Below are positions 24,227 to 34,645 of a stretch of 34,645 nucleotides of DNA, piece by piece; positions within the stretch are counted from its first letter, which is position 1; every line of letters starts with the position of its first letter. The notes under the pieces were generated by a model that worked only from the letters and a program-made list of their open reading frames with translations, made no database searches and was not told where the DNA came from. The position numbers were made by a program, and so were the translations under genes. Location of the stretch: IMG/VR virus record IMGVR_UViG_3300010397_000072, positions 1 to 34,645 of that record. One strand, written 5' to 3'. The DNA comes from a virus.

Positions 24227-24303
24227 CGGGCTGTAGCTCAGTGGTAGAGTAGTCATCTCAGGCATGAGTTGGAAGGACGCCGGTTCAACTCCGGCCAGCC
24301 CGA
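24227..24303 (+). tRNA. tRNA, probable Leu (anticodon CAG), unusual
   Basis: A cloverleaf can be drawn. The acceptor stem CGGGCTG (24227-24233) pairs perfectly with CAGCCCG (24296-24302), with discriminator A at 24303. The D stem is GCTC/GAGT (one G-U pair) with a seven-base loop. The anticodon arm is GTCAT/ATGAG (four of five pairs; G-G at the top) with loop CTCAGGC, giving CAG at 24259-24261. The T arm is GCCGG/CCGGC with loop TTCAACT. The variable region is 10 bases, shorter than usual for Leu, and the D loop is class-I-like, so the isotype is uncertain. CCA is not encoded. Confidence 0.75.
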
Positions 24304-24344: not shown

Positions 24345-24467
24345 ATGAAAAAAGTTAAGCTACAATTACCGCACGAGAGAGATTATTTAGCCGAGTTCAG
24401 CCGTTTTGTTTTAACTCTTGGGTTTCTATTCCTTTGTTATATTGTTCTAAAAGCCTGTATTGGATAA
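24345..24467 (+). CDS. Small membrane protein, 40 aa
   Basis: A 40-residue product with a basic N-terminus (MKKVKLQLPHERDYLAEF) and one strong transmembrane segment (FVLTLGFLFLCYIVLKACIG). I chose ATG 24345; the frame runs upstream through the tRNA without a credible start. The binding site is weak. The gene converges on the regulator gene and overlaps its 3' end by 21 bases. It could be a late accessory of lysis or exclusion. Existence is plausible rather than certain. Confidence 0.5.
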   Translation: MKKVKLQLPHERDYLAEFSRFVLTLGFLFLCYIVLKACIG

Positions 24468-24785
24468 TTGTGTTGTGTCTAGTGCCATTGAGAATAGTGT
24501 TTTCTTATCCAATTTAAGCACGCTTGATAACCCAGCACACTCTGAAACTGTGACAGACTTAAGGGGTTGTCCGTTCTCAAGTGCCTGATATCTTCTTTCT
24601 GTTATCCCAGCATATTTAGAGACAGCATACTGAGATAGTTTTAGCGTCTTTCTTCTGTGGGTTAGAAACTCTCCAAATGCCCTATCTTGTCTGGCTTCGT
24701 TAGCGGATACCTCATCTAAGTATTGAAGTTGAAATCCAATCTTTTTACTGCGCTCTTTGATTGCCAATGATCTCAATTGAGTCAT
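24447..24785 (-). CDS. XRE-family helix-turn-helix regulator
   Basis: A 112-residue DNA-binding protein, last gene of the leftward chain. The helix-turn-helix is LTHRRKTLKLSQYAVSKYAG followed by ITERRYQALENGQP, the classic Cro/CI arrangement in which the second and third helices recognise DNA. About 35 N-terminal residues form a helical extension. I chose ATG 24785 because AAGGAG lies about ten bases upstream; an ATG at 24794 would leave one base of spacing. The gene starts inside rusA. It could repress the divergent control region near 32224-32280, which has a suitable inverted repeat, but that link is inference. Confidence 0.82.
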   Translation of the reverse strand: MTQLRSLAIKERSKKIGFQLQYLDEVSANEARQDRAFGEFLTHRRKTLKLSQYAVSKYAGITERRYQALENGQPLKSVTVSECAGLSSVLKLDKKTLFSMALDTTQLSNTGF

Positions 24786-25116
24786 GATCTGCATACTCCT
24801 TGCTTGTTGTGATTTGAACTATACTTGAATCGTCTTTATACATAATGCCATTAAGGGCATCAAGAACGGCCTTAAGGAAATTGTCCAGGTCTCCCTGGGA
24901 AGGGAAGCTCTTGGATGGATTCTTTGGCTTTTTGTGTTTAAAAATTACGGCAATAGACACAGCGCCGTCAATGGGCTTTATCCCTGCTTTTATGGCCTCA
25001 TGCCGTATTGTATTTTCAAATACCACCGTCTTGGTTGGGGTATAAGTCCCATATCTGCTTAATCTAGGTCTTCCCTTTGGAACTGGTTTAGTCATTATCT
25101 TAAGATATTGGGTCAT
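24745..25116 (-). CDS. rusA: RusA-type Holliday junction resolvase
   Basis: A 123-residue endonuclease that cuts four-way DNA junctions as a dimer. The RusA signature is clear: PVPKGRPRLSRYGTYTPTKT near the start and QGDLDNFLKAVLDALNG at 74-90, with Asp76, Asp78, Asn79, Lys82 and Asp86, then Asp95/Asp96 in MYKDDSSIV. The acidic residues bind magnesium. Length fits the family. In this phage it would resolve branched intermediates from replication and Rad52-type annealing before packaging. Its ATG overlaps the stop of the upstream gene (ATGA), and its 3' end overlaps the regulator gene by about 40 bases. Confidence 0.92.
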   Translation of the reverse strand: MTQYLKIMTKPVPKGRPRLSRYGTYTPTKTVVFENTIRHEAIKAGIKPIDGAVSIAVIFKHKKPKNPSKSFPSQGDLDNFLKAVLDALNGIMYKDDSSIVQITTSKEYADHDSIEIIGNQRAQ

Positions 25117-25547
25117 TTCTTAACCCTCTCCAACGCATCCCTGGCAATGCTTTCGTAATGGCCTACTTTTTCCTGCGCGTTAAATCCCGCTTTGCAATCC
25201 TCGCAACCCGATATTGCTTCCAGCGTAGATTTATACTCGTCTATCACCCGGCATAGATCTTGGGTTTGGAGCTTGAGCTTTTCGATCTCCCTGCTCTGCA
25301 CGCACTCCCTTCGCTGGCAATTCTCGCGGCAGGTGTGGATGCCGGAGGATTCGAGGTAGTTCGCACGTTGCTCTAGCGTCTCAATCATCCTGTACTCATC
25401 AGACAGCCTTAGTAAAAGTTGGTCGCGCTCTTTCTTTATCGCGGCGTTCTCGGATTTGAGTTGGGTTATCTCGGCGCTCAGTTCGCAAGCGGTACAAAGC
25501 TGCCCGGAAGGTTCTTCTCGACACAAATAACAATCTTCTCTGCTCAT
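25113..25547 (-). CDS. Cys-pair and coiled-coil protein, 144 aa (mosaic family member)
   Basis: Cys6, Cys9, Cys18 and Cys21 (CYLCREEPSGQLCTAC) form an N-terminal zinc-knuckle-like module. A long coiled coil follows (AEITQLKSENAAIKKERDQL; REIEKLKLQTQDLCRV) with extra cysteines at CRENCQRREC and GCEDC. Two DNA blocks are shared with the gene at 28185: 25227-25278 and 25441-25460. Here they are separated by 162 bases, exactly 54 codons; in the other gene they abut. The two genes are therefore insertion/deletion versions of one ancestor. Function unknown; the fold suggests an adaptor or DNA-associated protein. Confidence 0.78.
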   Translation of the reverse strand: MSREDCYLCREEPSGQLCTACELSAEITQLKSENAAIKKERDQLLLRLSDEYRMIETLEQRANYLESSGIHTCRENCQRRECVQSREIEKLKLQTQDLCRVIDEYKSTLEAISGCEDCKAGFNAQEKVGHYESIARDALERVKK

Positions 25548-25903
25548 TTTCCCCCTCCCGAAAGCACCTTACTAATCTCTTTCATCTCTTCAACTATTTG
25601 GTCGAATCGCGCTTGCAATGAATAAAGTTGTTCGCCCAAAGCCTCGGCCATATGTTTTGCCAATTTAACCCGCTTTAATTCTTCTTCGCGCCGGTCCCGC
25701 CCCTCCTCAAACTGAGTGGCGAATTTGCACACGTTCTCGTATTCCCACTTCAGATTGGCGTTCTCGGCTTTGAGTTTGGCAGTGTCGTTGTCGTATTTGT
25801 CCTTGGTACACCACATGCCAGTATAGCCAGATAGCGCGTAGAATCCATCAACTGGCGGGGTGTACTTTGGAGTTTCGTCGTACGGATTATTGTCGTTTGT
25901 CAT
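25544..25903 (-). CDS. Coiled-coil protein, 119 aa
   Basis: Unrecognised. The polar, Pro/Tyr-rich N-terminus (NPYDETPKYTPPVDGFYALS) is followed from about residue 40 by a long charged coiled coil (AKLKAENANLKWEYENVCKF; REEELKRVKLAKHMAEALG). The segment LKAENANLK resembles LKSENAA in the two mosaic genes at 25113 and 28185, and the DNA there matches in all but one of about 18 bases. Start and stop overlap the neighbours as ATGA. It is part of the early leftward chain; no function can be assigned. Confidence 0.74.
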   Translation of the reverse strand: MTNDNNPYDETPKYTPPVDGFYALSGYTGMWCTKDKYDNDTAKLKAENANLKWEYENVCKFATQFEEGRDRREEELKRVKLAKHMAEALGEQLYSLQARFDQIVEEMKEISKVLSGGGK

Positions 25904-26196
25904 CGCTTCACCCCTCCCGCCAGCGCCCTGATATCTCTGGCGAGATATTGGTAATCAATCGCCTCACAAACTTTCGCTGCGGCCTCCACCCCATTTAAAA
26001 ATCCAACGCGCTCGCCCTCGGCATAACGCGCTTTCAATGCCTCAGATATTTTACCAGCCAGATGATGCCTCATGTTCGCGTCAATGACTCGGTGAGAGTA
26101 ATCTGACTGCATAAGCCAATAGTTTTTCCAATCATCCACAATCTTCAGTGCCAACTCTGTCGCCTTTTCGTCCACCGTCTTCTCTTGCGCTGTCAT
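25900..26196 (-). CDS. Hypothetical helical protein, 98 aa
   Basis: An unrecognised, helix-rich protein (ATELALKIVDDWKNYWLM; RHHLAGKISEALKARYAEG; VEAAAKVCEAIDYQYLARDI). No membrane segment, signal or metal site is visible. It overlaps both neighbours by four bases. Proteins of this size and composition are common in early operons of environmental phages, with no assigned role. Confidence 0.72.
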   Translation of the reverse strand: MTAQEKTVDEKATELALKIVDDWKNYWLMQSDYSHRVIDANMRHHLAGKISEALKARYAEGERVGFLNGVEAAAKVCEAIDYQYLARDIRALAGGVKR

Positions 26197-26444
26197 GATT
26201 GCTCCTTGCCGCCGAGTGCTGCCTGAATTGCGTTCACTGCCGCCGAAATATGGGTTGATGATTCATAATGATTATCTAACGCATCCAGAGCAAGGCGGCA
26301 CGCGCTCTCCAGCTCCTTCACCCTCGCTTCCGATGCGGCGAGCTTGGCATTAAGGGCATCAATTTCCTTGCACGCTTCTAGCCAATCATCTGTGCGCATG
26401 TTGAGCATTTTCTCCCCCGTTTCATTCGCGTTGTTAGAGGTCAT
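26193..26444 (-). CDS. Small coiled-coil protein, 83 aa
   Basis: An 83-residue helical protein. AGGAG lies just upstream of the ATG at 26444. The core ACKEIDALNAKLAASEARVK continues as ELESACRLALDALDNHYES, a coiled-coil pattern followed by a short helix. It overlaps its upstream neighbour by 11 bases and its downstream one by four. Function unknown. Confidence 0.72.
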   Translation of the reverse strand: MTSNNANETGEKMLNMRTDDWLEACKEIDALNAKLAASEARVKELESACRLALDALDNHYESSTHISAAVNAIQAALGGKEQS

Positions 26445-26706
26445 GGGAATCTCCTATCGCCTTGTGACAAACGGTGCAAACGTATGCTCCAGTAAATCCA
26501 ACGATCAGCTTTGTCCCTTCCATTCTCGTTGTATCGCTTCCATTAAGCTTGAATGTTTCAACAGGCTGAACTTTGTCACAGTTCGCACAATATCTTGGTC
26601 CATACAGCTTCTCGTTAACTTCGCGTAGAATCTTTGCCTCAGCATCCCTCGCCTTTTCGATGTCCTTTTCTAATTCGTGTGGTGGCATAAACAAGTACTT
26701 ATTCAC
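26434..26706 (-). CDS. Zinc-ribbon-like protein, 90 aa
   Basis: I chose the GTG at 26706, about six bases after GAAGGGGGG, which overlaps the end of the upstream gene by eight bases; ATG 26688 is an alternative. An N-terminal charged helix (PPHELEKDIEKARDAEAKI) leads to a four-cysteine site: Cys40 and Cys43 (YCANCDK), Cys77 and Cys80 (YVCTVCHK). The spacing fits a zinc ribbon of about 40 residues. The binding site lies in a 19-base repeat that also occurs before the gene at 27418. Confidence 0.74.
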   Translation of the reverse strand: MNKYLFMPPHELEKDIEKARDAEAKILREVNEKLYGPRYCANCDKVQPVETFKLNGSDTTRMEGTKLIVGFTGAYVCTVCHKAIGDSHDL

Positions 26707-27040
26707 CCGAACCCCCCTTCGTGGCGCTATGGGCTTTTCGTGCGTCTTCCAAATATGCTTTGGCAGATTTATATTCCTCCTTTGTTGGAACGCATCGGTT
26801 CTCTTCGCAGTGTCCAATATCGTCAACCATTGTTTCCATTCCTTCGATCGCCTCTTTCAGCGCCTCTCGAAGCTCCCGCACCTCGGCATCACGCGAAGAG
26901 TAACCGGCTTTAAATCCACCATAAACTGCAGTATCAATATTGGTCCAAATAACTGACCGTAATTTTACAGGGGGTCTTTCAAGACTTACGCCTGGACCGC
27001 GCTCCACAAATTCTATCGCCAACTCATCAAGGTTTTTCAT
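26699..27040 (-). CDS. Hypothetical protein, 113 aa
   Basis: I chose the ATG at 27040 because it overlaps the stop of the 42-residue gene upstream (ATGA); in-frame starts further upstream would lie inside that gene. Helical protein with a patch AEVRELREALKEAIEGMETM and C-terminal AYLEDARKAHSATKGGS. The ending ATKGGS recurs in the gene at 27728, with an identical 19-base DNA stretch, showing exchange of gene ends. Cysteines (HCEENRCV) could bind metal. Function unknown. Confidence 0.72.
   Translation of the reverse strand: MKNLDELAIEFVERGPGVSLERPPVKLRSVIWTNIDTAVYGGFKAGYSSRDAEVRELREALKEAIEGMETMVDDIGHCEENRCVPTKEEYKSAKAYLEDARKAHSATKGGSGE
26709..26727. repeat. 19-base repeat carrying a gene end and the next gene's binding site, copy 1
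   Basis: This 19-base stretch is identical to 27747-27765. On the minus strand it encodes the C-terminal ATKGG of one gene and at the same time supplies GAAGGGGGG, the ribosome binding site of the following gene. The two copies are about 1 kb apart and lie between unrelated gene pairs. Confidence 0.85.
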
Positions 27041-27165
27041 ATTACCCACTTCCGAATCTCTCCGCATTGCGTGCATTTCCAACAAAGATTGTTCCAGTCG
27101 TATTCCCACTCATGCCCATAGACAAAACAAAGAACGCTCCACATGTATTCAACTAGTGTTTTCAT
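27037..27165 (-). CDS. Zinc-binding microprotein, 42 aa
   Basis: A 42-residue gene fitting the chain exactly: its ATG (27165) overlaps the stop of the upstream gene, its TGA overlaps the ATG at 27040, and GGGAGGGACGGG precedes it. The product starts MKTLVEYMWSVLCFVYGHEW; the core WNNLCWKCTQCGEIRKW has Cys28, Cys31 and Cys34 plus His18, a knuckle-type site. Tryptophan-rich. Function unknown; a small DNA- or protein-binding factor is possible. Confidence 0.75.
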   Translation of the reverse strand: MKTLVEYMWSVLCFVYGHEWEYDWNNLCWKCTQCGEIRKWVI

Positions 27166-27470
27166 TCCCGTCCCTCCCCGTGGGCTTTGCGAAGATCCTC
27201 AATCCGTTTTCTAACCTCAACCAAGCCAACAATCTGGCCGTCGAGCATACCCATTTCGTCCCATGCCGCCAGCAGTGCTGCGACACTAGGCCCCAGGTCC
27301 ACCCGCTCGCGCTTCTTTCGCAAAGTACGTGATGCGGCGAGTTCGTTTTTAGTCATAGAGGTGGAATAATCGCCTCCATCAAAATAAACAAGCGTGTCAC
27401 CGTTTGTATCTTCTCCGTTAATAATCCCTCGGAAGCTTCTCCTGCTCCCCGGCTTGTACGCGTGGGTCAT
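27162..27470 (-). CDS. Hypothetical protein, 102 aa
   Basis: An unrecognised protein. The first half is basic then beta-like (KPGSRRSFRGIINGEDTNG; TLVYFDGGDYSTSM); the second half is helical and charged (VAALLAAWDEMGMLDGQIVG; LVEVRKRIEDLRKAHGEG). It starts at ATG 27470 with AAGGA about 11 bases upstream, inside the end of its upstream neighbour (53 bases of overlap, the largest in the chain). The next in-frame ATG would remove the beta-like part. Function unknown. Confidence 0.7.
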   Translation of the reverse strand: MTHAYKPGSRRSFRGIINGEDTNGDTLVYFDGGDYSTSMTKNELAASRTLRKKRERVDLGPSVAALLAAWDEMGMLDGQIVGLVEVRKRIEDLRKAHGEGRE

Positions 27471-27744
27471 TGGTCTGCCATCCTTTTCTTTCCGCTTCGC
27501 AGGGCTTGATTAATCTTCTTGGAAAGCTCTTTGAAGTCTTGGTGTGTAAATCCGAGATAGGTCCATTGATCTTCCGAATTAATGTCGGTTCGCATCCGCG
27601 AGTAAAATTAAGTGAGGCTTCTCGGCTTGGGAAATAAGCAAGGACATCTCTCCCCGCAAATCCGGAACTTTCCGGGCCTTGATACACGACCCAAACAAGC
27701 TTGGTGCCTCGCTCTGTAAATATCTGTTCACTTCTGGCTTTCAT
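27418..27744 (-). CDS. Hypothetical protein, 108 aa
   Basis: Starts at ATG 27744 with GAAGGGGGG upstream, supplied by the second copy of the 19-base repeat. The first half is beta-like (TKLVWVVYQGPESSGFAG; RDVLAYFPSREASLNFTRG); the second half is basic (HTKTSKSFPRRLIKPCEAE) and ends in a polar tail. It overlaps its upstream neighbour by 17 bases. No family is recognised. Confidence 0.7.
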   Translation of the reverse strand: MKARSEQIFTERGTKLVWVVYQGPESSGFAGRDVLAYFPSREASLNFTRGCEPTLIRKINGPISDLHTKTSKSFPRRLIKPCEAERKGWQTNDPRVQAGEQEKLPRDY

Positions 27745-28036
27745 CAGAACCCCCCTTCGTGGCGCGAATGGCCTCAAGAGCTTTCCGTGCTCGTTTGCCG
27801 CCTCGGTCCATATAGGGTCCGTCATCGTCCTCAAGAATATCAACGTCATCCTCAGTGATTACGTCGTAGACATCCCCCTCTCGGTCGTCCTCACCATTAA
27901 AACAAACCCAACGATCTTCCCAGTTAGATTTGTTAGCATAAAACTCAAGCGCCTCCTCCGCAATCTTCAGCCTCCCCCTCATCTCCAGGTTCTCGGCGTC
28001 TGAAAGAGTGTCTCCTGGTCTGAATTTGATGATCAT
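27728..28036 (-). CDS. Acidic hypothetical protein, 102 aa
   Basis: I chose ATG 28036, which overlaps the stop of the 51-residue membrane-protein gene; the longer frame upstream runs through that gene. The protein is acidic in the middle (FNGEDDREGDVYDVITEDDV; DILEDDDGPYMDRGGKR) after a helix (GRLKIAEEALEFYANKSNWE). Its end, ARKALEAIRATKGGS, parallels the end of the gene at 26699. Strongly acidic phage early proteins sometimes mimic DNA to block host factors; here that is only a possibility. Confidence 0.72.
   Translation of the reverse strand: MIIKFRPGDTLSDAENLEMRGRLKIAEEALEFYANKSNWEDRWVCFNGEDDREGDVYDVITEDDVDILEDDDGPYMDRGGKRARKALEAIRATKGGSDESQK
27747..27765. repeat. 19-base repeat, copy 2
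   Basis: Identical to 26709-26727. It encodes the ATKGG end of the 102-residue acidic protein and supplies GAAGGGGGG for the gene starting at 27744. Confidence 0.85.
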
Positions 28037-28188
28037 TTGATCCCCAACACGGTGTTTATCGCCCACATCACGGCAATAAGACCAAGCATGGTTAGGATGA
28101 AATAGCCTAACCAAGGCTCCTGAAAAGATAGAAATACATAAAAGCCTATAGTCGCCAACACAATAACCCAAGCAATAACCTTTTTCAT
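28033..28188 (-). CDS. Small membrane protein with two transmembrane segments, 51 aa
   Basis: A 51-residue gene whose start and stop both overlap neighbours as ATGA. The product has two hydrophobic segments, VIAWVIVLATIGFYVFL and LGYFILTMLGLIAVMWAI, joined by a short turn (SFQEPW): a helical hairpin in the inner membrane. It lies in the early chain rather than the lysis cassette, so interference with host membrane functions or superinfection exclusion is more likely than lysis. No family is recognised. Confidence 0.75.
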   Translation of the reverse strand: MKKVIAWVIVLATIGFYVFLSFQEPWLGYFILTMLGLIAVMWAINTVLGIK

Positions 28189-28559
28189 TTGAACTTCTCC
28201 AGTGTCTCGTGTGCAATATTCGCCATACGCAAAGCATTATCGGGCACAAAGCAATTGTCCTCGCGCATAAAATGGATCTTCTCAAGACCCCCTCTCAGTC
28301 CCTGCGCCCGCTGCTCGGACAGGCATAGCGCCGCGTGAATCTTGTCTCGCTCCTCCCTGGCTTTGTCCAGGTCGTGGATTGCGCGGTTACGTTCAGATTT
28401 ATACTCGTCTCGCTCCAGGCATAGATCTTGGGTTTGGAGCTTGAGCGCGGCGTTCTCGGATTTGAGCTTGTCGATCTGATTACACACCGAGCACGGGACA
28501 TCTGCCCTATGCATTAGATCGTGTAAGTCGCAATAATCGTATTCTGGTTGTTCGGTCAT
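28185..28559 (-). CDS. Cys and coiled-coil protein, 124 aa (mosaic family member)
   Basis: The N-terminus has Cys10, His13, Cys23 and Cys26 (YCDLHDL; CSVCNQ), then a coiled coil starting KLKSENAALKLQTQDLCLER. DNA at 28395-28446 matches 25227-25278 except for seven central bases, and 28447-28466 is identical to 25441-25460. Compared with the 25113 gene, this one lacks exactly 162 bases between the blocks. The rest differs. Overlaps both neighbours by four bases. Function unknown. Confidence 0.77.
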   Translation of the reverse strand: MTEQPEYDYCDLHDLMHRADVPCSVCNQIDKLKSENAALKLQTQDLCLERDEYKSERNRAIHDLDKAREERDKIHAALCLSEQRAQGLRGGLEKIHFMREDNCFVPDNALRMANIAHETLEKFK

Positions 28560-28993
28560 TTTGATCCCCCAGAATATCCGAGTAGCGGCGGCATTCTTCC
28601 GCTCTGGTAGGCTGTCCCGATTTGTGGGATCATCACGCTCCCCACGGTTTCACCGCTCGGCAAGACGATGTGAGCTAGGAACTCCTGTTCAAGCGTCGTA
28701 ATCCCGGATTCAACGCATTCAAGCTTTGCCTTGATCGCCAGGACCAGACAGCGCCAGCTGGTGCGGCAGAGCTGCTCATAGGTCTTGATCGATGCGCCGG
28801 TCGCCTGTTTGCTCGGCGGCTGTGGAAGTGGGAGAACAAACTTTATCCTGCGGCTCGCCATTTCAAACATTACGATTGCCTGATTGCCCTGCTCACCGTA
28901 GGCGAAGCCGCTCGCACCGTACTTGCCCAGGATCTTCCTGATTTCGCCCTGTGACCGATCAATCGGAACCGAGCTTTTCTCTGCGTAACTCAT
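28556..28993 (-). CDS. Conserved phage protein of unknown function, 145 aa
   Basis: I chose ATG 28993, preceded by GGAGG, overlapping the stop of the 41-residue gene; a longer frame starting at 29158 would cross that gene. The pattern of a SSVPIDRSQGEIRKILGKYG start, RIKFVLPLP, LVLAIKAKLECVESGITTLE and EFLAHIVLPSGETVG is one I remember from many environmental phages, always without a function. It appears alpha/beta, soluble and without a catalytic signature. Its place in the recombination/early block suggests nucleic-acid metabolism. Confidence 0.8.
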   Translation of the reverse strand: MSYAEKSSVPIDRSQGEIRKILGKYGASGFAYGEQGNQAIVMFEMASRRIKFVLPLPQPPSKQATGASIKTYEQLCRTSWRCLVLAIKAKLECVESGITTLEQEFLAHIVLPSGETVGSVMIPQIGTAYQSGRMPPLLGYSGGSK

Positions 28994-29115
28994 AATCCTC
29001 CAGCCTTTCTTAATTTGTTCGGCACCGGCACCAACAGCATCCCCATCCTCTTGCTCGCTTTCTCTTCGTCGGTTAGCTTGTCCCATTCTTTGATTTGTCC
29101 GGTATCGCTGTTCAT
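28990..29115 (-). CDS. Microprotein, 41 aa, containing a repeated peptide module
   Basis: A 41-residue gene with GGAGAG upstream of ATG 29115 and an ATGA overlap with the next gene. The polar start (DTGQIKEWDKLTDEEKA) runs into SKRMGMLLVPVPNKLRKAGG. That second half matches the 18-residue microprotein at 31105 (SKRMGM-x-LVP-x-P-x-K), with 19 identical bases (29038-29056 and 31141-31159). Both sit directly before an ATGA-coupled gene. No family or fold is recognised. Confidence 0.72.
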   Translation of the reverse strand: MNSDTGQIKEWDKLTDEEKASKRMGMLLVPVPNKLRKAGGL

Positions 29116-29199
29116 ATTCTCTCCGTTTCGTTAAAAGTTGGGTGGAGGTCCTCGCCATTCGGGGTTTCGCCTCCCCCGTCCCATTGATGTTGGGACAAC

Positions 29200-29397
29200 C
29201 TATTTGAACAATACAGCTCTTACGGCGCAGTCCTTGGCCTCAAGAAGTTTCCGAAGCGCAACTGTGCGTTCTGGGTTCCTTGGAAGCTCCGCGATTATCT
29301 TTACTGCCAAGTCTCCAAACGGCTTGCTAATCACCTGCAAATGCGGAGGCAAATGCCCATACTCAAAAAACTGTTCCAAATATTCTTTCTCTCCCAT
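29200..29397 (-). CDS. Conserved small phage protein, 65 aa
   Basis: A 65-residue protein with the string YLEQFFEYGHLPPHLQVISK, then PFGDLAVKIIAELPRNPERT and VALRKLLEAKDCAVRA. I recognise this as a widespread phage protein with no assigned function, often near replication or early genes. It should be three helices. The ATG at 29397 follows an AGAGAG-type site. The 84 bases downstream (29116-29199) hold no convincing gene; a 17-codon frame there lacks a binding site. Confidence 0.82.
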   Translation of the reverse strand: MGEKEYLEQFFEYGHLPPHLQVISKPFGDLAVKIIAELPRNPERTVALRKLLEAKDCAVRAVLFK

Positions 29398-29449
29398 ATC
29401 TCTCTTTCCTTCTTTCTGATCCCTTCGGATCGGTTATGCCCGGGGGCGG

Positions 29450-30337
29450 TTAAACTTTCTCCTTCACGGCGACCTTGATGCCGGTGATTTCGTGAAATAT
29501 TTCTGCATTGAAAAACGGTAGATTCTGGAAATCATTCTTCACTTGCTCGCTCGCATTGCCCCAATACTTTTGCCACGCTGCTTTGTACTCAAGCTTCTTG
29601 AGATAGCCGCCGGTGGTTTCTGCCTTTGGGTGCTTCTCTTTTTCTTCTGCTGTCATCTCTGAGAAATAGACCCATTCGGTCGTATCTGGTCCGCGTCCAA
29701 GCACCGCTTGAATCCGTGGATCACTCCACGGCACTTTGGAATAGCGGTTGAACAGCCGGACGTTCGGGGTATTGGTGCAGAATAGGCCCGAGTTACTGTC
29801 GCCCGAGTTCCAGTGGCCCGAGTTCCAGTGGCCCGAGTTCCTGTGGCCCGAGTTACTGTGGCCCGAGTTACTGTGGCCCGAGTTCCAGTGGCCCGAGTTC
29901 CAGTGGCCCGAGTTCCTGTGGCCCGAGTTACTGTGGCCCGAGTTACTGTGGCCCGAGTTCCTGTGGCCCGAGTTCCAGTGGCCCGAGTTCCTGTGGCCCG
30001 AGTTCCAGTGGCCCGAGTTACTGTCGCCGGAATTGCCCCTGCCGGTGTTCACGGCGTCTAAGACTTCGTGCCAAGTAAGCTCGCGGAGAATCGTGAGACA
30101 CGAAGTAACGTTCTTATCTTCGCCCTTTTTCGTGTCTTTGACTGGGGATTCCACGGCGCAAACCCTGTTCGTGGGGTCAAAGTTGTAGTAATTGAAAATA
30201 TCTTGGGCTTTCTCGCAGTAGTGGAACCCAGACTCACACATTGAGATCGGTCCCTTGTGCTCGTAGGTCTTTCCGACCTCGAACTGGAATCCTCGGCATT
30301 TCATGTCCTTGTCAAAACACTTAAACCCCTTGATCAT
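29450..30337 (-). CDS. Pentapeptide-repeat protein with DUF7666-like N-terminus
   Basis: A 295-residue protein. I chose ATG 30337 because AAGGAG lies five bases upstream; ATG 30361 has no site. Residues 1-60 (MIKGFKCFDKDMKCRGFQF; MCESGFHYCEKAQDIFNYY) match what I know as the DUF7666-type head. The middle is a run of pentapeptides, NSGH followed by Trp, Arg or Ser, 14 in a row, flanked by NSGDS on both sides: a candidate quadrilateral beta-helix rod. The C-terminal 100 residues start LFCTNTPNVRLFN and are soluble and mixed. Some pentapeptide-repeat proteins mimic DNA; here the basic and aromatic fifth positions give a different surface. Role unknown. Confidence 0.82.
   Translation of the reverse strand: MIKGFKCFDKDMKCRGFQFEVGKTYEHKGPISMCESGFHYCEKAQDIFNYYNFDPTNRVCAVESPVKDTKKGEDKNVTSCLTILRELTWHEVLDAVNTGRGNSGDSNSGHWNSGHRNSGHWNSGHRNSGHSNSGHSNSGHRNSGHWNSGHWNSGHSNSGHSNSGHRNSGHWNSGHWNSGDSNSGLFCTNTPNVRLFNRYSKVPWSDPRIQAVLGRGPDTTEWVYFSEMTAEEKEKHPKAETTGGYLKKLEYKAAWQKYWGNASEQVKNDFQNLPFFNAEIFHEITGIKVAVKEKV
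29786..30025. repeat. Tandem 15-base repeat array, 16 units
   Basis: Sixteen consecutive 15-base units, GCCCGAGTT plus a six-base end with few variants (CCAGTG, CCTGTG, ACTGTG, ACTGTC), with no other change. The third-position codons are invariant, so the array has been copied recently at DNA level. A 75-base higher-order unit (S-S-R-W-W as the fifth residues) occurs twice in a row. The array encodes the pentapeptide rod of the gene on the minus strand. Confidence 0.95.
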
Positions 30338-30396
30338 TTTTACTCCTTCGTTATTGTTCATAAACAGATTCCCAAGTGTCCAAAATTGTACTCATA

Positions 30397-30417
30397 AACC
30401 ACCCACTCTGGGCGGTT
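30397..30417 (-). terminator. Hairpin between the 54-aa gene and the pentapeptide gene
   Basis: AACCACCC (30397-30404) pairs with GGGCGGTT (30410-30417), eight pairs with one G-U on the minus transcript and a five-base loop. It covers the stop of the 54-residue gene and is followed on the minus strand by TATGAGTACAATTTTGG rather than a clean T-run. Together with the strong separate AAGGAG of the next gene, it may attenuate transcription there. Confidence 0.4.
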
Positions 30418-30580
30418 AAATCTCACCCAGCTTTTTAATCTTCTTCAGACACTTTTTGCAGGTCACATATTTAATTGTGCGAGACACTTTAAAGCCAACA
30501 CCGTTGGTGCGGCACAGACTGTGAAAATCTTTAATGCAGCACTGGTAGTGGGTTTTATTACTTTGCATGTACGTGCTCAT
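30416..30580 (-). CDS. Cysteine-rich microprotein, 54 aa
   Basis: A 54-residue gene; its ATG overlaps the stop of the upstream gene (ATGA). Cysteines at 14, 15, 23, 41 and 44 (YQCCIKDFHSLCRT; VTCKKCLKKIKK) make a probable zinc site, and the C-terminus is strongly basic (KKCLKKIKKLGEI). Nucleic-acid binding is the natural inference. No family is recognised. Confidence 0.74.
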   Translation of the reverse strand: MSTYMQSNKTHYQCCIKDFHSLCRTNGVGFKVSRTIKYVTCKKCLKKIKKLGEI

Positions 30581-30792
30581 TTTAAGCCCTTCCAAAAGTT
30601 CACCAATTCTTTATCAACACGATTCGATTCCGTGTTTCCCCTCATGCGTCCTTCCTCTGCCGATTTGTTCCACACCTCGCAAGCCACGCAGATTCTCTTT
30701 TCTGGCGTGGTCAAAAACTGTCCTCGGCAAGCCTCAGATACTCCGCTCAGGCACTTCATGACTTTCCTACCCTGGGTAATGGTCGTGCTCAC
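30577..30792 (-). CDS. Zinc-finger-like small protein, 71 aa
   Basis: I chose the GTG at 30792 because it overlaps the stop of the 33-residue gene (GTGA), the usual coupling here; ATG 30759 with AGGA upstream is a credible alternative that removes 11 residues. Cys14, Cys22, Cys35 and Cys38 (MKCLSGVSEACRGQF; RICVACEVW) outline a zinc finger followed by a charged helix (EEGRMRGNTESNRVDKELV). Function unknown. Confidence 0.73.
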   Translation of the reverse strand: MSTTITQGRKVMKCLSGVSEACRGQFLTTPEKRICVACEVWNKSAEEGRMRGNTESNRVDKELVNFWKGLK

Positions 30793-30890
30793 AAGCAACT
30801 CGGAAGGCTGCCCCAGTTATACGAATAAACCACCCACGCCACGCACACCGCGATAACGAGGAGGTACGCTAAAAGGTCTTCGGTTCTCAT
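30789..30890 (-). CDS. Membrane microprotein, 33 aa
   Basis: A 33-residue gene that fills the gap exactly: its ATG overlaps the upstream stop (ATGA) and its TGA overlaps the next GTG. One transmembrane segment, LLAYLLVIAVCVAWVVYSY, follows an acidic-basic start (MRTED) and precedes a polar tail (NWGSLPSCL). Probably an inner-membrane peptide; its partner is unknown. Confidence 0.72.
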   Translation of the reverse strand: MRTEDLLAYLLVIAVCVAWVVYSYNWGSLPSCL

Positions 30891-31108
30891 TCGCACCACC
30901 TTGAAAATGGAAACGTTTCCACTTCGACGCACATTTTGGTTAACGCTTTTGCTCTTTCCCAATCTTCTTTGTAAACCGCATCAACTAGGCGGTGTAATAG
31001 CTGGTCTTCTAGACCGTGAAGCAGCCCATCGTCTGAAAGCGCACCCTTGCTGTTTTCTATAACAATGCTGTCGTAAAGCTCTTGATCAGTTAATGGTTGT
31101 AGACTCAT
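30887..31108 (-). CDS. Hypothetical helical protein, 73 aa
   Basis: I chose ATG 31108, which overlaps the stop of the 18-residue microprotein gene. Helical and acidic (PLTDQELYDSIVIENSKG; LEDQLLHRLVDAVYKEDWER; AKALTKMCVEVETF). The repeated LLHRL and W/A-rich helices suggest a small helical bundle. No family is recognised; it is the second protein downstream of the annealing protein and translationally coupled to it through the microprotein. Confidence 0.74.
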   Translation of the reverse strand: MSLQPLTDQELYDSIVIENSKGALSDDGLLHGLEDQLLHRLVDAVYKEDWERAKALTKMCVEVETFPFSRWCE

Positions 31109-31161
31109 AACCTCACCTTTCTCGGCGCCGGCACTAACCACATCCCCATCCTCTTGCTCAT
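31105..31161 (-). CDS. 18-residue microprotein, coupled on both sides
   Basis: An 18-codon frame, MSKRMGMWLVPAPRKVRL. Its ATG overlaps the stop of the Rad52-type gene and its TGA overlaps the ATG at 31108, both as ATGA, so ribosomes moving through the operon should translate it. The sequence matches the C-terminal half of the 41-residue protein at 28990 in 12 of the first 15 positions. Double coupling plus a second copy supports a real gene or a conserved leader. Confidence 0.62.
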   Translation of the reverse strand: MSKRMGMWLVPAPRKVRL

Positions 31162-31949
31162 GTCTTAATTAGGTCCTGTTCCCATAGCGGCATCTCTTGG
31201 GGTTCCGTTTGTTCCGGTTTTAAGGGCCCTGGCTTCCCCTCCATTGCTTCCGTTCCGGTCATTGAGGCGATCGCCTTACAAAGCATTTTAAATTGATCCT
31301 GGGGCAAATCAGAGGGCTTAGCCTTGCCATAGGTTTTTGCGGTATAAGCCACAACGGTCTCAAGCTGCCAATGGTGTTTCTTGGCCAATAGCTTTAGCTC
31401 GTCAATGTCCGCTTGGGATGGCTTATCCTCGGCTGGTTTGGTTTGTTTAATCGGAGTTATGTTTTTATTGGGTTCATTTTGTGGTAGCGCCCACGATGGA
31501 AGTTGTGGCGGTAACCAGTAAAACCACTTTCCTTCTTTTGTTTTGCCGGACAATGCGCCTTTTGTTCCCTTTTCAACTATTTGAGCAAATCCGCTTTCTA
31601 GACCGTAGAGGTATCTTCCTATGCCCCAAGCAGACCCCGCTCGCTTTAGAGCGCTTGATATTCCGCCTTTAAATGCCTCAATATCTGTTTCTTCAGCACC
31701 GTCCGATTTTATAATCCAGTCATCGTTGACCTTGATGGATAGATTACACATCACCCCATTTGGTAAATGAGAATAATTTACAGACCAGTTTTCTGGACCT
31801 GCCACATCGTCTAATCGATCCATAACGGCTCTTGCCTGTATATAAGCCAAACAAACCGCCCAGACTTTTCCGTTGGTTTCTCCACACTGCGCAAGACGCC
31901 ACTCAACATCTGATGTCGAAAATGGTTTTTTAAGTTCCTTTAAATTCAT
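31158..31949 (-). CDS. Rad52-type single-strand annealing protein
   Basis: A 263-residue recombinase of the Rad52/Rad22 type that anneals complementary single strands as a ring. The N-terminal 115 residues show the family core: FSTSDVEWRLAQCGETNGKV, ARAVMDRLDDVAGPENWSV, then IKSDGAEETDIEAFKGGISS and ALKRAGSAWGIGRYLYGLE, which is the most conserved part. Residues about 150-263 are Pro/Lys/Gln-rich with a short helical domain and a final acidic tail, probably for SSB or partner binding. GGGAG precedes ATG 31949. Partners in this genome are ssb (34023) and rusA (24745); no exonuclease was recognised. Confidence 0.9.
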   Translation of the reverse strand: MNLKELKKPFSTSDVEWRLAQCGETNGKVWAVCLAYIQARAVMDRLDDVAGPENWSVNYSHLPNGVMCNLSIKVNDDWIIKSDGAEETDIEAFKGGISSALKRAGSAWGIGRYLYGLESGFAQIVEKGTKGALSGKTKEGKWFYWLPPQLPSWALPQNEPNKNITPIKQTKPAEDKPSQADIDELKLLAKKHHWQLETVVAYTAKTYGKAKPSDLPQDQFKMLCKAIASMTGTEAMEGKPGPLKPEQTEPQEMPLWEQDLIKT

Positions 31950-31981
31950 ATTAATTTACTCCCGACTTCCTACTTGCTTTC

Positions 31982-32206
31982 TTAAACATCGCTTACTCCT
32001 TCGTAAATGGTTCTATAGAACGCTTGCACAGCGGTCTCTAGAGCCTTTTTGGTTTCTTCCTTAGTCACAGTTTTATAATCAATTGGTTTGTTAGAGCCAG
32101 ATCCAAGACAAACGGGGCATCTGACTATCTGAGTCGGTTCGAGTTCCCATTTGATAAGACACTCGCCGCTGGCTTGGCACTGCTCACAGTTCCCATATTC
32201 GCTCAT
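31982..32206 (-). CDS. Zinc-finger protein (DnaJ-like Cys pairs), 74 aa
   Basis: First gene of the leftward chain. Cys7, Cys10, Cys16, Cys30 and Cys33 (NCEQCQASGEC; RCPVCLGSGS) include the C-x-x-C-x-G-x-G signature seen in DnaJ zinc domains. A charged helical C-terminus follows (VTKEETKKALETAVQAF). I chose ATG 32206; a GTG at 32236 would add ten residues and lie within the left arm of the inverted repeat. Neither has a strong binding site. As first gene after the control region it may be the most abundant early product; a binding role is inferred only from the cysteines. Confidence 0.75.
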   Translation of the reverse strand: MSEYGNCEQCQASGECLIKWELEPTQIVRCPVCLGSGSNKPIDYKTVTKEETKKALETAVQAFYRTIYEGVSDV

Positions 32207-34022: not shown

Positions 34023-34451
34023 ATGAGCGACTTCAATTCAATTACCGTATCAGGAAACCTAGGCCAAGACCCCACCCTTAAGTTCACCCCTGGCGGGACG
34101 GCGGTTCTAGAAATGAGCCCGGCCGTGGGGAAATCAAGAAAGACCCAAGCCGGGACTTACGAGAAATCAAGTTTCTGGGTTAAGACTATTTGCTTTGGGA
34201 AGACCGCTGAATATCTGGCTAACGTTCTGTTCAAGGGAACCAAGGTTGTAATCATCGGAAGCCTCGATATCCAATCCTACCAAGATAAGACTGGCCAGCA
34301 GAAATATATGACCAAGATCCTGGCCGATCGGGTTATGAGCCTAAACGCTCCTCGGAAGGAACAAGAGGAGACTAAGGGTCCTAAAACGGACGTCAAACGA
34401 GAAGTTAACCTCCCCGAACCGGATATGGCTGAAGCGGATATTCCCTTTTAA
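34023..34451 (+). CDS. ssb: Single-stranded DNA-binding protein
   Basis: A 142-residue SSB. The OB-fold is clear: FNSITVSGNLGQDPTLKFTP at the start, SSFWVKTICFGKTAEYLANV in the middle and GTKVVIIGSLDIQSYQDKTG after it. About 35 charged, unstructured residues follow, ending in the acidic tip MAEADIPF, the motif bacterial SSBs use to dock partner proteins. AGGAG precedes ATG 34023. It protects single strands in replication and should hand them to the Rad52-type protein. Having the DIPF tip suggests it can replace host SSB in contacts with host repair and replication proteins. Confidence 0.95.
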   Translation: MSDFNSITVSGNLGQDPTLKFTPGGTAVLEMSPAVGKSRKTQAGTYEKSSFWVKTICFGKTAEYLANVLFKGTKVVIIGSLDIQSYQDKTGQQKYMTKILADRVMSLNAPRKEQEETKGPKTDVKREVNLPEPDMAEADIPF

Positions 34452-34520: not shown

Positions 34521-34645
34521 ATGAGCGCCAAGCAAATGTGGAGCGAATACTCTAATACCAAGCGACCGTCTCTATTAACCCAGATATCCGGGTCTCCGAT
34601 TAAGATCTGCCCCACGTGTGGATATGAGCATTACGGATATCCCCC
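34521..34645 (+). CDS. Zinc-ribbon-like small protein (5' part; continues at base 1)
   Basis: The true start of the gene whose remainder is at 1-238. ATG 34521 follows AAGAGGAT; the frame reads MSAKQMWSEYSNTKRP and continues without a break to the contig end. Joined with bases 124-238 it gives 79 residues. The strong promoter at 34472 belongs to it. This end contains the first Cys pair (Cys30, Cys33). Confidence 0.87.
   Translation, partial: MSAKQMWSEYSNTKRPSLLTQISGSPIKICPTCGYEHYGYP
34523..34645. repeat. Terminal direct repeat, right copy (circular overlap)
   Basis: Identical to bases 1-123; see the left copy. Removing one copy gives the 34,522-bp circular map. Confidence 0.95.

Follow-up and report, generated by a model that had tools for sequence, protein, structure and literature searches.

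Short in-frame DNA blocks shared at different spacings by two small genes of an unclassified phage

Two small genes of an unclassified phage, about 3 kb apart, share short blocks of near-identical DNA, which lie joined in one gene and 162 nt apart, in frame, in the other. We interpret these blocks as short tracts copied or exchanged between two small early accessory genes by annealing at short identity, and assign this reading a probability of about 0.68. The window, i.e., the whole stretch of DNA analyzed, comprises the 34,645 bases of an IMG/VR virus record; positions 1–123 are identical to 34523–34645, and this 123-nt end overlap indicates that the phage contig is probably complete and circularly closed. 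The genes concerned, designated A, B, and C, and the segments shared by A and B are as follows:

25113–25547, minus strand: gene A, an ORF of 144 aa with an N-terminal CxxC...CxxC, a helix, a Cys-rich turn, a block-bearing second helix, and CxxC
28185–28559, minus strand: gene B, an ORF of 124 aa with an N-terminal CxxH...CxxC, then a single long predicted helix
25544–25903, minus strand: gene C, 119 aa, containing LKAENANLK; matches the inner block of A at 71% over 38 nt
25227–25278, minus strand: outer block in A, LKLQTQDLC-RVI-DEYKS; 48/52 identical to 28395–28446, with exact runs of 16 and 29 nt
28395–28446, minus strand: outer block in B, LKLQTQDLC-LER-DEYKS
25440–25460, minus strand: inner block in A, LKSENAA; 21 nt exactly matching 28446–28466
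28446–28466, minus strand: inner block in B, LKSENAA, directly adjoining the outer block
25279–25440, minus strand: 162 nt (54 codons) between the blocks, present only in A, encoding a helix, the Cys-rich turn HTCRENCQRREC, and the start of a helix

The exact runs of 16, 29, and 21 nt are read in the same frame in both genes. The outer blocks were 92% identical over 52 nt in the BLAST alignment; their four mismatches all fall inside one 7-nt patch and alter three codons, which read RVI in gene A and LER in gene B. The sequence-only reading had already described the outer blocks as matching except for seven central bases and had equated 28447–28466 with 25441–25460. Both descriptions held, and the second identical run proved to be 21 nt long, with a one-base overlap of the outer and inner blocks at the junction in B. 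The spacing that it reported, with the blocks touching in one gene and an in-frame 54 codons apart in the other, was confirmed. The 54-codon stretch found only in A resembled neither gene C nor the remainder of B to a significant degree.

The block match between A and B is real and not a product of chance. In 60 third-order Markov copies of the genome, the longest repeat never exceeded 17 nt, as against the 29 nt observed, and when synonymous codons were re-drawn for the same two proteins (300 trials), the longest shared runs were 8–21 nt. The 21 codons shared by the two genes carry no synonymous change, which has a probability of approximately 2e-10 from codon usage alone. Zero changes at about 13 synonymous sites, by our own count, bound the divergence of the blocks at no more than approximately 0.2 per site. 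Outside the blocks, neither the N-terminal parts (shuffle P = 0.33) nor the C-terminal parts (P = 0.12) of A and B were significantly alike. Near-identical DNA that is sharply bounded by unalignable DNA points to the exchange or copying of tracts rather than to duplication with divergence, and the identity at synonymous sites in the blocks, together with the unalignable flanks, indicates that the tracts postdate any divergence between the genes themselves. The earlier description of a recent recombination event is supported as regards a transfer of short tracts between genes about 3 kb apart, whereas its "recent" translates only into the bound given above.

A rather doubtful explanation is that a whole gene was duplicated and the copies then diverged, B losing 162 nt or A gaining them, while selection preserved the blocks. 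Both proteins have a Cys-rich start and a similar IAxxxLExxK helix at the end, which speaks for such an origin. However, these terminal resemblances did not reach significance, and likeness along the whole length, the test of whole-gene paralogues, was not found. Moreover, the synonymous sites of the blocks are unchanged while the remainder has diverged beyond recognition, and protein selection alone would not hold codons. The proposal that A and B are two genes differing by an exact insertion or deletion thus could not be upheld. Neither could their assignment to a family of Cys/coiled-coil proteins, because A and B matched no family above the cut-off and no relatives of them were found. Sub-threshold matches of A, B, and C to coiled-coil families (e.g., DivIC, SHE3) were rejected as heptad-driven. 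The suggestion that gene C carries a similar block was borne out in part: its LKAENANLK does resemble the inner block, but the resemblance is weaker and mostly at the protein level. The scores obtained by shuffling for the pairs B–C and A–C were not taken as a sign of kinship because shuffling destroys heptad periodicity.

The predicted structures illustrate how the same blocks are accommodated in the two proteins. AlphaFold2 models, which were built from a single sequence and so are weak evidence, with coiled-coil-type helices being an easy case, gave gene B an unbroken helix at residues 23–100 (mean pLDDT 83) and gene A helices at residues 19–67, 82–112, and 124–143 (mean pLDDT 69), with a low-confidence Cys-rich break between the first two. 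The 54 residues present only in A (37–90) run from within the first helix across the break into the beginning of the second. It had been asked whether these residues extend the coiled coil by full heptads; they do not, since 54 is 7 × 7 + 5 and the model of A breaks there. At the junction in B, LKSENAA is joined to LKLQTQD exactly one heptad apart.

Searches for relatives of the two genes gave negative results throughout. No relatives of A or B were found by protein in IMG/VR, and neither protein matched anything in phage records or in 32 related records. Similarly, the DNA of 24400–32000 had no match among phage records, and the 29-nt block was absent from other IMG/VR records (the window's own record was perhaps left out of the search). 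These results also bear on the possibility that the blocks reached A and B separately from a third gene of another phage or prophage, with no exchange between A and B. Phage mosaicism usually involves other genomes (PMC10684548), which speaks for such a donor; nevertheless, neither search recovered one and none is needed, and we consider this origin improbable. The phage as a whole is remote from everything searched: its capsid had a best match of 55% in IMG/VR, its terminase had best matches of approximately 25% in phage records, and queries with the Erf protein and the capsid returned distant phages only.

The window has genes for terminase, a head–tail connector, and the major capsid. A and B both lie in a leftward run of small genes that extends from an Erf/Rad52-like gene to a RusA-like gene and a helix-turn-helix gene, and are situated between the annealing-protein gene and the resolvase gene. 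This run is presumably expressed early, judging by its position beside recombination genes, which are listed here with the other identified genes:

31158–31949, minus strand: Erf/Rad52-like single-strand annealing protein (phrog_1097, 1.8e-70; PF04098, 1.7e-12, 47.9 bits against a cut-off of 20.3)
24745–25116, minus strand: RusA-like Holliday junction resolvase (PF05866, 1.9e-22; phrog_140, 1.3e-29), overlapping the end of gene A
24447–24794: helix-turn-helix protein, in the leftward run
34023–34451, plus strand: single-strand DNA-binding protein (PF00436, 1.5e-22)

A tRNA-Leu (CAG) gene is located at 24227–24303, where the rightward structural genes meet the leftward early genes. A 303-aa protein of unknown function (phrog_14105) contains 15-nt tandem repeats at 29725–30095, which encode NSGH(R/W) units.

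Under the tract-exchange reading, tracts of approximately 20 and 50 nt that encode segments of coiled coil would have been copied or exchanged between A and B, with annealing at short identical stretches as the route of transfer and the phage's own Erf/Rad52-like protein as the putative catalyst. The two tracts, which lie apart in A, would have been joined in frame in B to form one continuous helix, whereas in A the 54-residue stretch with its Cys-rich turn separates them; the change could have run in either direction, as a loss of 54 codons by B or a gain by A. The in-register product may have been kept by selection, and the two proteins may oligomerize through their block-bearing helices. 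The annealing protein encoded by the phage is a plausible agent. Phage Rad52-like recombinases, including Erf of D3, recombine diverged sequences far better than RecA, and the exact pairing needed is 23–27 bp for Red-beta versus 31–34 bp for RecA (PMC3945230). The 29-nt block falls between these limits, which is suggestive only, the block being the outcome of an event and not necessarily its substrate. Illegitimate and homeologous events appear to contribute about equally to phage mosaics (PMC2327257). The short, imperfect identity seen here lies within the known substrate range of these enzymes, although the exchanges described in those studies were between phages or with prophages and involved longer stretches, whereas the putative exchange between A and B would have taken place within one genome (PMC3945230, PMC2327257).

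Several points weigh against this account. The enzyme is implicated by proximity, and the action of host RecA, slippage during replication, or simple illegitimate joining would look the same in the sequence. Furthermore, annealing at the junction in B would need more than the single base shared there. A and B also had no relatives among the records searched that could show the ancestral state or the exchange itself.

Other repeats occur in the same region. Two other early genes share a 19-nt exact repeat at their ends (26709–26727 and 27747–27765), which codes for ATKGGS and holds a AAGGGGGG run resembling the ribosome-binding site of the next gene; a similar 24-nt repeat was seen at a gene junction in another locus (L013, 9040/9272). 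A 38-nt repeat with 89% identity (29019–29056 and 31122–31159) links a 41-aa ORF just upstream of the gene at 28556–28993 with an 18-aa ORF near 31141, with an in-frame SKRMGM.LVP.P as read by eye, and is the third instance of early-region genes having a block in common. The location of repeats in one leftward gene run, and the ribosome-binding-site-like sequence in the repeat at 26709/27747, would also fit the view that the blocks are DNA or RNA elements, such as a binding site or pairing signal, and not coding modules. This view is highly improbable, given that block identity tracks the reading frame and that the same peptide motif uses different synonymous codons in gene C and in the second phage described below, suggesting protein-level constraint between genomes.

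The gene at 28556–28993, just upstream of B, belongs to phrog_17260 and was used as bait to fetch similar loci. Its product, of unknown function, is widespread in phages, with 368 relatives in IMG/VR, and its KAKLE and EEFLAH-like motifs are strongly conserved. With the window counted in, the survey covered 107 loci and 1.35 Mb. Blocks of at least 18 nt common to two ORFs in frame were found at 13 of these loci, and in three (the window, L004, and L099) the same ORF pair shared two or more blocks at changed spacing. Block sharing with changed spacing is thus uncommon, not unique. At L099, a DNPGPHP block is repeated near gene starts and ends. Seven loci with isolated single blocks (L007, L015, L022, L065, L113, L114, and L116) were set aside, as were three (L100, L119, and L122) whose block spacing was constant or almost so and which were taken for ordinary paralogues. 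For example, three consecutive ORFs at 107–2767 of L119 share blocks at nearly constant spacing, resembling an ordinary recent tandem duplication.

Phage L004, which contains the nearest relative found of the bait gene (69%), provided the closest parallel. Two early ORFs located 2–3 kb downstream of that relative share LKSQNAEL and LSKIKK in frame; the former is encoded by 23 nt of exact identity (35/36 nt when extended) and the latter by 21 nt. The blocks are 173 nt apart in one ORF and 113 nt apart in the other, a difference of 60 nt, or 20 codons. One of these ORFs is related to gene I of the window (27728–28036); scanning with the gene-I alignment recovered nothing beyond the L004 record itself, and the L004 protein found nothing in phage records. 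L004 also encodes a single-strand annealing protein (phrog_3290, 3e-47), but because many phages have annealing proteins, finding one in each of the two cases is weak evidence. The recurrence in an unrelated assembly also argues against an artefact joining two loci, which would be conceivable in a contig from a public virus collection; in addition, both ORFs are intact, the blocks differ by four bases, and their length is far below the 123-nt end overlap. We regard such an artefact as scarcely credible. A broader generalization is that the early accessory region, from the annealing-protein gene to the resolvase gene, serves as a within-genome repertoire maker, in which small coiled-coil proteins are rebuilt through heptad-sized DNA blocks moving between neighbors, and that this recurs in distinct phages (the window and L004). 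We offer this as speculation with a low likelihood of being correct.

The case can be placed among known forms of phage mosaicism. In domain mosaicism as described by Smug et al. 2023 (PMC10684548), recombination gives phage proteins with no other relationship a homologous fragment in common, and the authors expect much more of it among accessory and unknown proteins. The fragments shared by A and B are not independently folding domains but 7 and 17 residues of helix, and both genes belong to one genome. With blocks that are near-identical in DNA and a remainder that is not significantly alike, A and B exemplify intragenic mosaicism, not domain mosaicism in the strict sense. The short conserved boundary sequences of phage mosaicism (PMC3029335) are likewise short DNA blocks among small genes; the repeat at 26709/27747, with its gene-end position and ribosome-binding-like run, resembles them, whereas the blocks of A and B lie inside genes. 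A and B are also similar in layout and position to Ea22 of lambdoid phages, an early accessory protein encoded near recombination genes, which has an N-terminal part, a central coiled coil that varies in sequence and length, and a divergent C-terminal part (PMC10834534, PMC7093339). No sequence relation to Ea22 was found, and as neither Pfam nor PHROGs gave an Ea22 family match for A or B at E values up to 0.1, the two proteins were not classified as Ea22-like.

Overall, A and B represent ordinary phage protein mosaicism on an unusually small, sub-domain scale within one genome. This single case changes no established view, but it is a clean example of intragenic recombination at 7–17 residues, a scale invisible to domain-based surveys, and a second phage offers a similar example. 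If widely recurrent, such recombination would help explain how phages make many unrelated-looking small early proteins.
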